Shown piece by piece: positions 23,483-30,611 of a stretch of 30,670 bases of DNA. The stretch comes from a virus. Each line of letters begins with the position of its first letter. The stretch's first letter is position 1. The stretch is taken from IMG/VR virus record IMGVR_UViG_3300032288_001914, positions 1 to 30,670 of that record; one strand, written 5' to 3'. A model generated the notes under the pieces. That model did not search any database. It worked only from the letters and a program-made list of their open reading frames with translations, and had not been told where the DNA came from. The position numbers and the translations under genes were made by a program.

Positions 23483-23664
23483 CCAATCCCGGCCCCGGCG
23501 AGTTCAGGTGCGGGGATTGCATCACGGTGAAACATCACCGCGAACTGGTCGACGTCGCCATCGACACGATCCTCGCGAAGTTGCTCGACTACGCCACGAC
23601 GTCGAGCTACGACGGCCGTGAGGCGATCCACGCGGCCGTCGCATGGGTGCGTGACCCGTGGTAG
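23479..23664 (+). CDS. small protein with CxxC motif
   Basis: 61 aa, GTG start. CGDC at residues 11-14 with two following histidines (VKHHRE) could bind metal. Then come helices (LVDVAIDTILAKLLDYAT, GREAIHAAVAWVRD). No family is recognised. It overlaps the WhiB-like gene by 7 nt. Confidence 0.6.
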   Translation: MTNPGPGEFRCGDCITVKHHRELVDVAIDTILAKLLDYATTSSYDGREAIHAAVAWVRDPW

Positions 23665-24059
23665 CGCCCGACTCCATCGGATCCTCAAACCCCGCCCCCT
23701 GTTCCCAATGTGGCGCGTGGATGCCCCGACCCCGCACCTGGCATTACGGGAAACCCACCTGCCGGGGCTGCCTCACCCGCGTTGTCGACGCGACCGTGCT
23801 CGACCGTGAATGGATGAAAGACGCGAACTGCGCCGGGACCCTGATCGACTTTTTCCCCCACATTGACCACAAGCAGGACATCAGCCTGCAAAGAACCATC
23901 TGCCGGTCCTGCCAAGTGCAAACTGAATGTCTGACCTACGCGATAAGAACACGCGAACCCCACGGCATCTGGGGTGGCATGACCCCGATGGAACGCCACA
24001 TGTTCGCCCGAACAAACCGCCTACCAACATTCACCCCGGAAGGAACCCAGCCCGAATGA
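23658..24059 (+). CDS. WhiB-family regulator with extra N-terminal zinc ribbon
   Basis: 133 aa, GTG start at 23658. Residues 15-38 form a Cys4 ribbon (CSQC...CRGC). From residue 52 a WhiB domain follows: C58 in DANCAGT, CRSC (C82, C85), C91 in TECLTYA, and the signature turn GIWGGMTPMER (103-113). The four cysteines should bind a [4Fe-4S] cluster, and WhiB proteins usually act by binding the main sigma factor. Phage WhiB-like proteins are known to alter host transcription. The N-terminal zinc-ribbon fusion makes it longer than a typical ~85-100-aa family member. The basic C-terminal tail is short. Confidence 0.9.
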   Translation: MVAPDSIGSSNPAPCSQCGAWMPRPRTWHYGKPTCRGCLTRVVDATVLDREWMKDANCAGTLIDFFPHIDHKQDISLQRTICRSCQVQTECLTYAIRTREPHGIWGGMTPMERHMFARTNRLPTFTPEGTQPE

Positions 24060-25160: not shown

Positions 25161-25858
25161 CGCCCCACGGCCACTACCGCACCTATCTCGCCGGATGCCG
25201 GTGCGACATCTGCACGGGACGACTTCCGCACGGCACCGGCACCGGGTATTCGATGTGGCGATGCCGCTGCGAAGTGTGCCGCGAAGCGAACCGACGCCGG
25301 CAAGGGCAGTATGAACTGCGGCGGCATCGGGGCATCAGCCCATGGGGTGACCGTGACAAAGTTCTCGCCCACATTCGGCAGCTCGTAGCCGACGGCCTCA
25401 CCTACAACGCGATCGCGAAGGCGGGCGGCTACCGTTCCCACTCCCACATCGACCACATCCTCAGCGTCAAACAGATCACCAAGGCCACGGAACGCCGGAT
25501 CCTCGCGATTCGGCCGACACAAGTCCCGCCTGGCATGTTGATCCCCGCCATCGGTTGTCGACGCCGGTTGAAGGCACTTGCCCGAATGGGCTGGTCCTGT
25601 GACGCGATCGCCGAACGAGTCCACTGCGACCCACGGACCCTGCGCAGCATCCTCGGCGGGGATCAACAAAAAGCCCGCAAATCCGTCGTCGACAAAGTCG
25701 CCCAGTTCTACGACACCCACTCGATGACGATGGGGCCGTCGATACAGGCACGGGTTCAGGCGGAGCGGAAGCAGTGGCCGCCGCCGTTGGCGTGGGACGA
25801 TCACGACCTCGACGACCCGAAGGGGCAGGCGCGGGCGTTCGCGAGGATCAAGCGATGA
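25157..25858 (+). CDS. HTH DNA-binding protein with N-terminal Cys-rich module
   Basis: 233 aa. Residues 1-50 contain two similar halves: YLAGCRCDICTG and MWRCRCEVCREANRRR. These are short zinc-finger-like repeats that occur in actinophage DNA-binding proteins. About 75-110 is an HTH (LVADGLTYNAIAKAGGYRSH), and 138-170 is a second HTH (LARMGWSCDAIAERVHCDPR). The C-terminus is basic and polar. The two HTHs and zinc repeats suggest a sequence-specific regulator of phage or host genes. It lies between small unknown genes and the GNAT-like gene, with 4-nt overlaps on both sides. Confidence 0.8.
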   Translation: MTPHGHYRTYLAGCRCDICTGRLPHGTGTGYSMWRCRCEVCREANRRRQGQYELRRHRGISPWGDRDKVLAHIRQLVADGLTYNAIAKAGGYRSHSHIDHILSVKQITKATERRILAIRPTQVPPGMLIPAIGCRRRLKALARMGWSCDAIAERVHCDPRTLRSILGGDQQKARKSVVDKVAQFYDTHSMTMGPSIQARVQAERKQWPPPLAWDDHDLDDPKGQARAFARIKR

Positions 25859-26385
25859 ACCTCATAGTGCTGCCAATAGAGTTGAAAGAAGCGAACGCCT
25901 TCATCGCAGCGTTTCACCGCCATCACGCGCCTGTCGTCGGTGATCGCTTCAGCCTCGGCTGCGTCGATGACAATGGATTGATACATGCGGTCTGCGTCAT
26001 AGGGCGTCCAGTTGCAAGACTGGCAGGACATCCTCGCGATGTCGCCGAAGTAACACGACTGGCATCCGACGGAACACCTAACTCATGCTCCATGCTGTAC
26101 GGCGCGGCAGCTCGTGCCTGTAAGGCGATGGGATTTCGACGCCTACAGACTTACACACTGCCAGAGGAAGGCGGCGCCAGTCTGCGGGCCAGCGGATGGA
26201 TCGACGAAGGCGAAGCGGGCGGAGGGCAGTGGAAACACACCGACGGAAAAGCACGACGAACCGATCAGCCGATCGACAAGAAAACTCGATGGAGTATCAC
26301 ATTCAACAGGCAATCGCTGGACCTCATAATGCCACCAGCGTGCGATGGCCTCACGATGACGCTGTTCGATGAGGTCACATCGTGA
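25855..26385 (+). CDS. XF1762/GNAT-like protein (putative acyltransferase)
   Basis: 176 aa. LKEANAFIAAFHRHHAPVVG, GRPVARL, VAEVTRLASDGTPNSCSMLY, GAAARACKAMGFRRLQTYTL and GGASLRASGW match the XF1762-type family. These proteins have a GNAT-like fold and are encoded by many phages and mobile elements. Mom, the Mu adenine-modifying protein, also belongs to the broad GNAT group, so DNA-base or nucleotide modification is possible but unproven. The DNA is less GC-rich than its surroundings (31 of 60 bases in 25861-25920), suggesting separate acquisition. Confidence 0.8.
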   Translation: MNLIVLPIELKEANAFIAAFHRHHAPVVGDRFSLGCVDDNGLIHAVCVIGRPVARLAGHPRDVAEVTRLASDGTPNSCSMLYGAAARACKAMGFRRLQTYTLPEEGGASLRASGWIDEGEAGGGQWKHTDGKARRTDQPIDKKTRWSITFNRQSLDLIMPPACDGLTMTLFDEVTS

Positions 26386-27647: not shown

Positions 27648-27703
27648 CACGGCCCCGCCTAGACCTCATCCATCGGTGAGGGGAGAAGCTAGGCGGGGCC
27701 GTG
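27648..27703 (+). terminator. long hairpin between OB-fold and primase genes
   Basis: CACGGCCCCGCCTAG (27648-27662) pairs perfectly with CTAGGCGGGGCCGTG (27689-27703), a 15-bp stem. The 26-nt loop can form a second small stem, CCTCA/TGAGG (27664-27668 and 27677-27681). There is no U-run. It begins 13 nt after the OB-fold gene stop, so it could terminate or attenuate transcription before the primase gene or stabilise the upstream message. Confidence 0.8.
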
Positions 27704-27742
27704 CCAGCCCCAGCCCACTGCGCCAGCCCGAAGGGCAACACC

Positions 27743-29797
27743 GTGACACAAACCATCCAGTCACGCTACGACTGGTTCCTCGAACAACTCCGCGCCCACG
27801 GCAGCCGCGTCATCACCCGCGGCCCATCCACCGCCACCGCCCAATGCCCCGCGCACCGTGACCGCACCCCAAGCCTCGCCGTGTCCACCGGCGACACCGC
27901 GGTCGTCCTCACCTGCCACGGTGGCTGCAACCCGCAGGATGTCATGGCGGCCCTGTCGCTCACCTACGGTGACCTGTGGCCCGACGACGGTGTCACCCGC
28001 ATCGAAACCCCAGCCGTGTGGATGGCCTACGCCGAGAAGGTCCGCGACCTGAACGAACGCGCCAAACACCGCGACACGTCCAAGCCTGACCTACCGGAGA
28101 ACACGACACGGGAACACGTCACCGCCTACTGGTACGTCAACGAAGCGGACGAACTGGTCGGCGTGAAAAACCGGTACAACCTCATCAACCGGGACACCGG
28201 CGAGATCGTCGGCAAGACATTCACCCTCCACGCCGTCGTCGACGGGGAACAACGACCCACCCTCGAAGGCCACCACCTGCCCCTGTATCGCCTCGTCGAC
28301 ACGATCAGGGCCGTCGAAGTTCGCGCCCCCATCTACCTCGTCGAAGGCGAGAAAGATGCCGACAACCTCGCCGCCCACGGCCTCGCCGCCACCAGCCTCC
28401 CCGGAGGCGCCAACGACCCACTGCGACCCGACGTCCTAGCCCCACTGGCCGGTGCTGACGTTCACGTCATCGTCGACAACGACCCACCCGGACACAAACT
28501 CGCCCACCGGCTCAACAACGCCCTAACGTCGATCGGCTGCCGCACCTGGTACTGGACCGCCGCCACAGGCAAAGACGCGACCGACCACCTCGACGCCGGA
28601 CTCACCATCCACGACCTCATCCCATACCGGCTAGAAACCGGCACCAGCGACGACCAGCCCGACCCCGAGGTCAACACCGTGACCGAACCCGACACCGACC
28701 TCGAGCTGCCCCCCGTCCCCGACTCCACATGGCTCCCCCGACTCCTATCCGACCTCATCGTCGAAGCCGGCGCCGCCCCCGAACCCACCATCCTCGCCCG
28801 CACCGACGGGAAACTCGGCCTCTACCCCGGCCGCGTCAACGGACTCCTAGGTGAAGCCGAATCAGGCAAAACATGGATCGCCCTCGCCGCCTGCCGTGAA
28901 GTCATCAAGGCAGGCGGGACCATCACCTACATCGACTTCGAGGACTCCATCACCGGCATCGCCCACCGCCTCGCCACCCTCGACATCACCGGCGACGACC
29001 TCAAGCGCGTCCAATACATCAACCCCGACACCGCGATTCACGAACTCGAACGCCAACTCATGCTCAACGCGATCCACGCCCACGCCCCCGCCCTGATCGT
29101 CGCCGACGGCGTCAACGCCGGCATGACCCTCCTAGGCCTCGACATCAACTCAAACAACGACGCCACCACATTCTTCACCCGCATCCTCAAACCCCTCGCC
29201 ACCAACGGCGCCGCCGTCCTCGCCATCGACCACCTACCCAAATCCAAAGAAAACCGTGGCAAAGGCGCGATCGGTGCCCAGGCGAAACGCGCCATGATGA
29301 CCGGCGCCTGCTACACCGTGAAAGTCGAGGACCACCCAGCCCCCGGCCAAACCGGCACCCTCAGGCTGTACGTCGACAAAGACCGGCCCGGCCGGATCCG
29401 TGAACAAGCCCGAGGACGCAAAGCCCTATGGGGAATCGCCATCATCACGTCCCACACCCCGAAGGTCGCGATCCGCATCGAGCCACCCAGCCCCGACGGA
29501 CAAGACGACGACGACGAAACCCCCAACCGTGAACCCCGCCGACGACCCATCACGTTAGAGGCCCTCATGGGCCACATCGCCGAAATCGCCCACGCCAACA
29601 CCACACCCGACGGCCAACACCAACCCACCGTCGCCCGCCACATCAACACCAGACTCCGCGAAACCGGAATCTCAGCCAGCAACGACACCATCCTCAACGC
29701 CACCGACCAACTCATCCGCGACGGATACCTCGACCAGCGGAAACGGTGGATCCGCGCCTACGAAACCCCCGACACCGAACCCCGACCACGCCGATGA
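27743..29797 (+). CDS. DNA primase-helicase (Toprim plus RecA-like ATPase)
   Basis: 684 aa from the GTG at 27743, where GAAGGG lies 8 nt upstream; an earlier GTG at 27701 lies inside the hairpin and is less likely. Domains: zinc finger (C35, H38, C58, C62; CPAH and CHGGC), Toprim primase core (IYLVEGEKD with E201; IVDNDPPG with D245 and D247), and a RecA/RepA-type ATPase with Walker A GEAESGKT (370-377), Walker B LIVADG (451-456) and AIDHLPKS. The last ~95 residues look like a winged helix. It would prime and unwind DNA for host polymerase; no phage polymerase is present. It overlaps the next ORF by 4 nt. Confidence 0.95.
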   Translation: MTQTIQSRYDWFLEQLRAHGSRVITRGPSTATAQCPAHRDRTPSLAVSTGDTAVVLTCHGGCNPQDVMAALSLTYGDLWPDDGVTRIETPAVWMAYAEKVRDLNERAKHRDTSKPDLPENTTREHVTAYWYVNEADELVGVKNRYNLINRDTGEIVGKTFTLHAVVDGEQRPTLEGHHLPLYRLVDTIRAVEVRAPIYLVEGEKDADNLAAHGLAATSLPGGANDPLRPDVLAPLAGADVHVIVDNDPPGHKLAHRLNNALTSIGCRTWYWTAATGKDATDHLDAGLTIHDLIPYRLETGTSDDQPDPEVNTVTEPDTDLELPPVPDSTWLPRLLSDLIVEAGAAPEPTILARTDGKLGLYPGRVNGLLGEAESGKTWIALAACREVIKAGGTITYIDFEDSITGIAHRLATLDITGDDLKRVQYINPDTAIHELERQLMLNAIHAHAPALIVADGVNAGMTLLGLDINSNNDATTFFTRILKPLATNGAAVLAIDHLPKSKENRGKGAIGAQAKRAMMTGACYTVKVEDHPAPGQTGTLRLYVDKDRPGRIREQARGRKALWGIAIITSHTPKVAIRIEPPSPDGQDDDDETPNREPRRRPITLEALMGHIAEIAHANTTPDGQHQPTVARHINTRLRETGISASNDTILNATDQLIRDGYLDQRKRWIRAYETPDTEPRPRR

Positions 29798-29973
29798 ACC
29801 GGTGTTCCGTTCCGTGTTCCGTGACATGTTCCGCTGTTCCGGAACACCCGGAACACGTTCCCGGAACAGCGGACGGTCTCATCGCACGCGTGTTCCGGTG
29901 TTCCGTGTTCCGCGCACCTTTAGGTGCGGAACGCGGAACGGCGGAACGCACGAAGACCCGCGGAACAACATGA
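29794..29973 (+). CDS. 59-codon ORF composed mainly of GTTCC/GGAAC repeats
   Basis: 59 aa. The ATG overlaps the primase stop (ATGA) and the ORF ends on the next start (ATGA), which suggests real, coupled translation. The sequence begins MNRCSVPCSVTCSAVPEHPE and has no known domain; Cys, Val, Pro and Arg dominate because of the repeats. The DNA repeats fall in all three frames, so they are constrained as DNA rather than protein. It is either a genuine small protein overlapping an origin or a pass-through ORF that keeps ribosomes moving. Confidence 0.45.
   Translation: MNRCSVPCSVTCSAVPEHPEHVPGTADGLIARVFRCSVFRAPLGAERGTAERTKTRGTT
29804..29966. repeat. array of 16 GTTCC/GGAAC motifs, candidate replication origin
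   Basis: GTTCC starts at 29804, 29809, 29816, 29828, 29836, 29857, 29892, 29900 and 29907. GGAAC starts at 29841, 29850, 29863, 29928, 29935, 29943 and 29962. It includes a perfect 12-bp palindrome, TGTTCCGGAACA (29835-29846). Near the right end is a stem with arms CGCACC and GGTGCG and a TTTA loop (29913-29928), flanked by further inverted copies. The array lies directly after the primase-helicase gene, the typical place for iterons of a replication origin. Confidence 0.75.
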
Positions 29974-30257
29974 AACTCCCCTTCGGCCCCTGCCGAGAAT
30001 GCGGGCAGCACGTCCTCAAACTCCACGACCAAGGCCGACCCATCCGCCTCGACCCCACGCCCCTCACGGCTAAGCAGGTCGCCGCCGCCTGGCTACTGGA
30101 TCGCCCCGTCTACTGGCTCACCCCCCACGGCCCCATCCCCATCCCACCCGGCGACACCGGCCTAACCGCCCTACCCCGCCACGTCATCCACACCTGCGGA
30201 AAACCTGTGCCCAACCATCAGCCACCAGCAACGGACAACGACCTCCCCCCCTACTAG
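29970..30257 (+). CDS. small zinc-motif protein
   Basis: 95 aa, ATG in an ATGA overlap. PCRECGQHV near the start and HTCGKP near the end supply cysteines and a histidine for a possible zinc site. The middle (LHDQGRPIRLDPTPLTAKQV, VYWLTPHGPIPIPPG) is beta/proline-rich. The protein is familiar as a small conserved type near actinophage replication genes, but I cannot assign a function. Confidence 0.6.
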   Translation: MKLPFGPCRECGQHVLKLHDQGRPIRLDPTPLTAKQVAAAWLLDRPVYWLTPHGPIPIPPGDTGLTALPRHVIHTCGKPVPNHQPPATDNDLPPY

Positions 30258-30296: not shown

Positions 30297-30611
30297 GTGA
30301 TCGCTCGACCTTGCCTCGACTGCGGCCGCCTCATCCCATCCGGGTCACGGTGCGAACCATGCCGAAAACAAACCGAAACCATCCGCGCCGCCAGACGCCC
30401 ACCCCGCCCCCACTACGGCGGCGACTACCGGCGTAGGGCCGCCTCCATCCGCGCCAACGCAATCACCTGCTGGTACTGCGGACAACCAGCCCGCGACGGC
30501 GACCCATGGCAAGCCGACCACCTCATCCCGGGCGACCCCGACTCCCCCCTCGCCCCAGCCCACCGCAGTTGCAACATCCGCCGCGCCCACGGCCTCCCCC
30601 CCCTGGCATGA
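30297..30611 (+). CDS. HNH endonuclease (packaging-associated type)
   Basis: 104 aa, GTG at 30297. CLDCGRLI and CEPCRK form an N-terminal zinc ribbon, followed by a basic linker. The HNH core is CWYCGQPARDGDPWQADHLI, ending APAHRSCNIRRA: the D-H pair in ADHLI, a later His (APAHR) and Asn (CNIRR) are the expected catalytic residues. Small HNH proteins next to terminase genes are needed for cos cleavage in several long-tailed phages. With the terminase at the opposite window end, this supports linear ends or a circularly joined packaging region. Confidence 0.88.
   Translation: MIARPCLDCGRLIPSGSRCEPCRKQTETIRAARRPPRPHYGGDYRRRAASIRANAITCWYCGQPARDGDPWQADHLIPGDPDSPLAPAHRSCNIRRAHGLPPLA

Follow-up and report, generated by a model that had tools for sequence, protein, structure and literature searches.

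A dense array of the short word GTTCC/GGAAC was found directly behind the gene of a primase-helicase in the window, that is, the whole analysed stretch of 30,670 nucleotides of an actinobacterial phage (IMG/VR virus record IMGVR_UViG_3300032288_001914). In 122 of 136 loci encoding homologous primase-helicases (from viral contigs, named phages and actinobacterial genomes, with relatives counted), repeats form an array at the 3′ end of the helicase gene that exceeds everything else in the locus in density. The array is a real and widespread cis element. It is probably an iteron-type origin of replication, or a crr-like part of one, which would be read by the C-terminal domain of the primase-helicase itself.

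Repeat array of the window

The sequence-only reading had reported sixteen copies of the word in 163 bp, split nine to seven between the two directions, and a recount gave the same figures. On the + strand GTTCC starts at 29804, 29809, 29816, 29828, 29836, 29857, 29892, 29900 and 29907, and its − strand positions are 29841, 29850, 29863, 29928, 29935, 29943 and 29962. The start-to-start spacings of the words are 5, 7, 12, 8, 5, 9, 7, 6, 29, 8, 7, 21, 7, 8 and 19 bp, and a longer form of the word is TGTTCCG/CGGAACA. GTTCC was found 106 times in the whole window against 85 expected, an enrichment so slight that the clustering is what counts. By density the array is the top cluster of 5-, 6- and 7-mers in the window; outside it, any 5-mer together with its complement reaches at most 8 copies per 163-bp stretch, and 200 dinucleotide shuffles of the window gave at most 15 and on average 9.6 copies of any 5-mer per 163 bp against the 16 observed. 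No second word cluster was seen in the 30,670-bp window.

The perfect 12-bp palindrome and the larger imperfect hairpin claimed earlier are both present (Table 1). The palindrome, TGTTCCGGAACA, consists of two words head to head. The arms of the long inverted repeat (29887–29913 and 29926–29952) are 81% complementary and enclose a central hairpin, CGCACC-TTTA-GGTGCG, at 29913–29928. As expected from inverted words flanking a hairpin, the single-stranded array folds far more stably than shuffled sequences (z = −6.5). A search of Rfam gave no credible match, and blastn of the array against phages returned chance matches only.

Table 1. Coordinates of the array and of the surrounding features in the window.
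Feature	Position	Strand	Remark
Primase-helicase	27701..29797	+	Toprim (Pfam Toprim_2) and RecA-fold helicase (Pfam AAA_25), with C-terminal winged-helix-like domain
Winged-helix-like C-terminal domain of primase-helicase	29555..29794	+	Proposed reader of the words
59-codon open frame through the array	29794..29973	+	ATGA overlap with each neighbouring gene
GTTCC/GGAAC array, 16 words, direct and inverted	29804..29966	.	Proposed binding array (origin) of the primase-helicase
Perfect 12-bp palindrome, two words head to head	29835..29846	.	
Long imperfect inverted repeat: three words, hairpin, three inverted words	29887..29952	.	
Small Cys-rich (zinc-ribbon-like) protein gene	29970..30257	+	
HNH gene	30297-30611		After the Cys-rich gene

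The helicase part of the protein matches Pfam AAA_25 and RecA, its best Foldseek matches are RecA and KaiC, and it is not of the SF3/D5 (AAA+) type. The 59-codon frame coupled to both neighbours was found as described earlier, and another reading frame, beginning at GTG 29802, also crosses the array into the next gene. A gene for a CxxC protein comes after the array in many relatives. A scan of window genes next to the array revealed no RepC-like iteron-binding protein. Two further window genes should be mentioned: the protein encoded at 25774–26385 strongly matches a PHROG of Mom-like DNA modification proteins (7e-35), and a Cys-rich protein at 23658–24059 resembles, as judged by eye, an actinobacterial WhiB-type regulator.

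Arrays behind homologous helicases

Since a search for related loci with the window helicase alone found none, an alignment query was needed. The first set of helicases was collected by the P-loop region alone and was therefore blind to repeats; it takes in the window, contig L043 and three named phages, and dereplicates to 23 clade-by-word units. For every locus, copies of one 6-mer between the end of the helicase core and just past the stop codon were scored against any other 200-bp window of the locus. The helicase-end segment ranked top in 76 of these 84 loci, and a second collection made with other seed sequences added 38 positives among 43 new loci, with the array starting inside the helicase ORF in 18 and 14 loci, respectively. 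Eight of nine genome contigs were also positive, most of them from Actinomycetota (for example Streptomonospora, Actinomadura, Nocardioides, Phycicoccus, Serinicoccus). About 20 loci had first been scored as lacking an array, and in most of these it was found inside the helicase ORF. No array was present behind the helicase homologues of Streptomyces phage KimJongPhill, Dulem virus 38 and Nocardia L290.

The arrays lie just past the helicase stop codon or within the last helicase codons, and the words vary by lineage (CTCGTCC, ACCCTTTCCC, CCGATCC, TTGACC, CTGAACC and others). Among named phages, Microcystis phage MinS1 has CTCGTCC, Streptomyces phage Dagobah TGAACC and Microbacterium phage Hendrix TTCTCAG. 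The arrays are laid out alike: several direct words are separated by a spacer from one or two more, after which come, in most cases, a small GC hairpin with a short loop (often CCCC-TTTA-GGGG) and then inverted words. The succession of word, hairpin and inverted word seen in the long inverted repeat of the window was found again in many relatives. L220 and its relatives carry the array within the helicase gene, between −149 and −38 relative to the stop codon. There it encodes the C-terminus of the protein (LTDLTD...APPYKGGRSVKSV), and the coding sequence doubles as the DNA element.

The GTTCC word itself recurs in more distant settings. A 14-base exact-word scan of viral contigs, of which the other matches were mostly chance, yielded three AT-richer contigs (L013, L035 and L043) with a ten-copy GTTCC/GGAAC array directly after a PrimPol-AAA_25 helicase gene and followed by a Cys-rich gene; the array of L035 is incomplete at the contig end. 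The helicase cores of these contigs are only about one third identical to that of the window. Arrays of GTTCC type were also observed after or near more distant primase-helicases in L157 (3657–3826, PrimPol-AAA_25) and L151 (2490–2617, CHC2-AAA_25), and some genes away from a CHC2-Toprim-DnaB primase-helicase in L168 (3033–3175), which suggests wider or convergent use. The GTTCC-rich contigs L141, L148, L152, L173 and L174 were set aside as ordinary tandem repeats. Perfect tandem GGAACAC or GTTCCGG octamers occur in L015 (3456–3496), L173 (5878–5932), L141, L148 and L152, which are unrelated contigs and offer no helicase context; as far as seen, these too are ordinary tandem repeats.

Constraint on the DNA and on the peptide

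Arrays of relatives that are 74–98% identical differ by substitutions spread 118:120:131 over first, second and third codon positions in the spanning frame. Of the 21 indels between related arrays, 19 have a length that three does not divide. In the control, the final 150 bases of the helicase gene, the spread was 183:122:512. It is therefore the DNA that is kept. Comparison of relatives, one of the checks proposed earlier, showed that the word spacing is conserved while the peptide drifts; between L195 and L237, for example, the words stay in register and the longest frames lie in different phases. The idea of an origin overlapping a gene finds no support on the side of the gene: among relatives the 59-codon frame bears no mark of protein constraint.

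An early impression that the arrays lie mostly outside ORFs was corrected by a systematic count, in which open frames spanning the array proved common: they were present in 26 of 31 dereplicated arrays located after the helicase stop, against 17.1 expected from shuffles. As in the window, many of these frames terminate at the point where the following (Cys-rich) gene has its start codon. The open frame may be a translated leader. It should also be noted that a hypothetical protein annotated in GenBank for MinS1 (UIU47017.1; L263, MZ923504.1, 297–491) occupies exactly the site of the CTCGTCC array and is unlikely to be a genuine gene.

The C-terminal domain of the helicase and the words

The C-terminal half of the window helicase was modelled as a RecA-type core (Foldseek: RecA, KaiC) followed by a three-helix domain with a wing. 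The predicted helices lie near 29555–29596, 29630–29662 and 29681–29719, with the wing after them. Sub-threshold Pfam matches of related C-terminal domains were mostly to winged-helix families, and on the model and these matches the domain is termed winged-helix-like. Modelled in isolation, the domain gave a poor model and no significant Foldseek match.

Association between residues and words was assessed over the 23 clade-by-word units with core identity regressed out. For segments picked after looser tries (a whole-domain correlation and a sliding-window scan), units with the same word were found to share residues in helix 2 (p = 0.0004), in the N-terminal half of helix 3 (p = 0.0005) and in the wing (p = 0.016), while helix 1 and the rest of helix 3 showed no word association in this test (p about 0.67). 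Core windows reached p < 0.05 in 3 of 28 cases, which is near chance, and core identity was alike for same-word and different-word pairs (0.51 and 0.52). Of the looser tries, the plain whole-domain correlation did not separate the C-terminal domain from the core, and in the sliding-window scan the window on helix 3 came no higher than 27th among 338. An independent set gave p = 0.003 for the wing, 0.022 for helix 2, 0.019 for helix 1 and 0.068 for the N-terminal part of helix 3, with 2 of 27 core windows. This second result is weaker yet consistent; it again supports the domain as a whole and lends less support to the detail of helix 3.

Single comparisons point in the same direction. L252 and L195 have cores that are 93% identical and C-terminal domains that are 32% identical, and their words differ (GAACC in L252, GTTCC in L195). 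L195 and L237, with cores 73% and C-terminal domains 72% identical, share the same word. One freshwater clade combines CTCGTCC with VEK...KAEWVR, ACCCTTTCCC with VIK...KTEWV(L/M) and AGTTCCC with VIK...RREWV(L/I). Joint inheritance by recombination contributes to these swaps of word and domain, because the DNA of the C-terminal domain and the array physically adjoin and can share a tract. Such tracts fail to explain the agreement between words and residues in unrelated lineages.

The sequence of the Cys-rich neighbour showed no association with the word in a comparison that had little power (12 units, p = 0.83). The sequence-only reading had proposed an origin or iteron region, perhaps bound by a phage protein, and this is still the best reading of the array. 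Of the two proteins that it named for footprinting, the nearby zinc protein and the primase-helicase, the second is favoured: by these sequence associations, the C-terminal winged-helix-like domain of the primase-helicase is the likely binder of the words.

Replication signals

Within 150 bp of the arrays the density of DnaA boxes is 0.481 per kb, compared with 0.027 per kb elsewhere, an 18-fold difference; the boxes beside arrays come from about four lineages. Judged as an iteron-type plasmid origin, the window has the clustered repeats beside a cognate replication-protein gene and has neither an exact DnaA box nor, at 1-kb resolution, an AT-rich stretch (63% GC over 29001–30000). A turn of the GC skew close to the array was seen in the window and in several GC-rich relatives (L190, L191, L193 and Dagobah), whereas low-GC contigs showed none there.

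Comparison with known systems

The alpha protein of phage P4 is likewise a primase-helicase fusion, with crr directly 3′ of its gene. The C-terminal part of alpha recognises the type 1 repeats, and its helicase is of the SF3 type, in contrast to the RecA-fold AAA_25 helicase described here. P4 also differs in having a separate ori with the same words 2 kb upstream of alpha; nothing of this kind was seen in the window. In the GenBank annotation (NC_001609), crr is a region required in cis for replication, with ten 8-bp words in both orientations.

The origin of the SaPIs consists of short iterons directly downstream of rep that are read by the C-terminal domain of Rep, and Cch2 of SCCmec binds direct repeats downstream of its own gene (PMC7581432). 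The SaPI origin resembles the present array in lying directly downstream of the helicase gene, whereas SaPI5 Rep and Cch2 are D5/Primase_Cterm-type helicases and the phage protein has a RecA fold with a Toprim primase. The array would work like P4 crr or a SaPI origin, but its helicase is not of the SF3/D5 type and it is therefore classed as a variant, not a member.

Plasmid pRN1 encodes a primase-helicase, ORF904, with a C-terminal winged helix, and its origin of about 100 bp lies in the 166 bp downstream of the gene; a stem-loop in this origin is needed and is conserved though its sequence is not (PMC4234260). The likeness lies in the winged-helix or winged-helix-like C-terminus and in the downstream position of the origin, which is putative in the phage. 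Unlike the phage, pRN1 lacks iterons, and its helicase, of the SF3 type, is paired with a primase of the archaeo-eukaryotic kind. Nearest to the present helicase by family is RepA of RSF1010, which shares the RecA fold (AAA_25/RepA). The RSF1010 oriV has iterons and stem-loops for priming, and its iterons are read by a separate protein, RepC (PMC4234260, PMC8965321), whereas the reading domain is seemingly fused to the helicase here. Lambda O and the replisome organisers of the lactococcal phages Tuc2009 and TP901-1 bind repeats in or beside their own genes (PMC8965321), a similar placement, but these proteins are not helicases. A literature search, largely confined to papers open without subscription, found no paper on the present arrays.

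Alternative explanations

The array could be an operator, at which the primase-helicase or another regulator binds the words and controls transcription of the replication genes, with the hairpin as attenuator or terminator and replication starting elsewhere. The two orientations of the words and the palindrome suit a regulator, the hairpin looks like the stem of a terminator (in P4, alpha and crr are separated by one), and the putative DNA binding of the helicase domain would fit equally well. This reading is nevertheless unlikely: the array is found where the helicase gene ends and not at a promoter, in many loci it is inside the coding end, the window hairpin has no T run, and the DnaA boxes beside several arrays favour replication. 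A partition-like site, or another kind of site specific to each phage, at which the helicase or a protein encoded nearby would act in recombination, segregation or superinfection control and not in initiation, is very unlikely. No partition ATPase was seen beside the array in the loci read and the associated protein is the primase-helicase, although any function of an array-binding helicase would yield the same linkage and co-variation. A packaging (pac/cos) site for the small terminase, placed between the replication and packaging modules, is highly improbable. HNH genes follow the array within a few kb, and in some contigs (L243, L151) terminase-like genes as well, but the array goes with the helicase and not with the terminase, and its words track the C-terminal domain of the helicase. 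Other genes come next in L205, the terminase gene of Dagobah lies at 1.8 kb and its array at 38.5 kb, and in MinS1 the two are about 5–7 kb apart on the circle.

That the region is simply a small protein-coding gene with chance codon repeats, coupled to both neighbours, is scarcely credible. The ATGA-coupled 59-codon frame, the excess of spanning frames and the GenBank annotation in MinS1 speak for such a gene, but the even codon positions and frameshifting indels refute it as the sole explanation, L195 and L237 are open in different frames, and the 59-codon product has no family match. A neutral microsatellite arising from slippage is likewise extremely improbable, even though the words are short and near-tandem and GTTCC octamer tandems occur in unrelated contigs, as the words stand in both orientations, with uneven spacing conserved in relatives, at a fixed place behind the helicase in many diverged phages, and change in a coordinated way throughout a lineage.

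Proposed mechanism

If the array is an iteron-type origin, several copies of the primase-helicase would bind the TGTTCCG words through the winged-helix-like C-terminal domain, and this binding would concentrate the helicase, a ring-forming protein of RecA fold (AAA_25/RepA-like), on the DNA immediately behind its gene. The duplex would then open at the array, possibly aided if the hairpin at its centre is extruded, and initial primers would be made by the Toprim primase to which the helicase is attached. Elsewhere in the family, words and reading domain would have diverged jointly from lineage to lineage, and every phage would thereby have acquired a replicon specificity of its own.

It is quite possible, and is put forward tentatively, that these phages represent a large undescribed class of phage replicon in which the primase-helicase, of RecA fold (RepA/AAA_25), recognises the origin by itself and works without an additional initiator or loader. 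The winged-helix domain and the words would have co-diverged by swaps and point changes, leaving a partly readable code from residue to word that sets origin use between co-infecting phages.

Implications

If this reading is true, origins would be assigned to many actinobacterial and freshwater phages for which the start of replication is unknown, and the 3′ end of the primase-helicase gene would provide a simple rule for finding them. For annotation, the hypothetical protein on the MinS1 array probably calls for correction. The design of an initiator-helicase that recognises its own origin, known for the SF3 type, would be extended to the RecA-fold family. The repeated concerted changes of word and domain form a natural data set for the code of DNA recognition by winged-helix domains and for the replicon specificity of phages.
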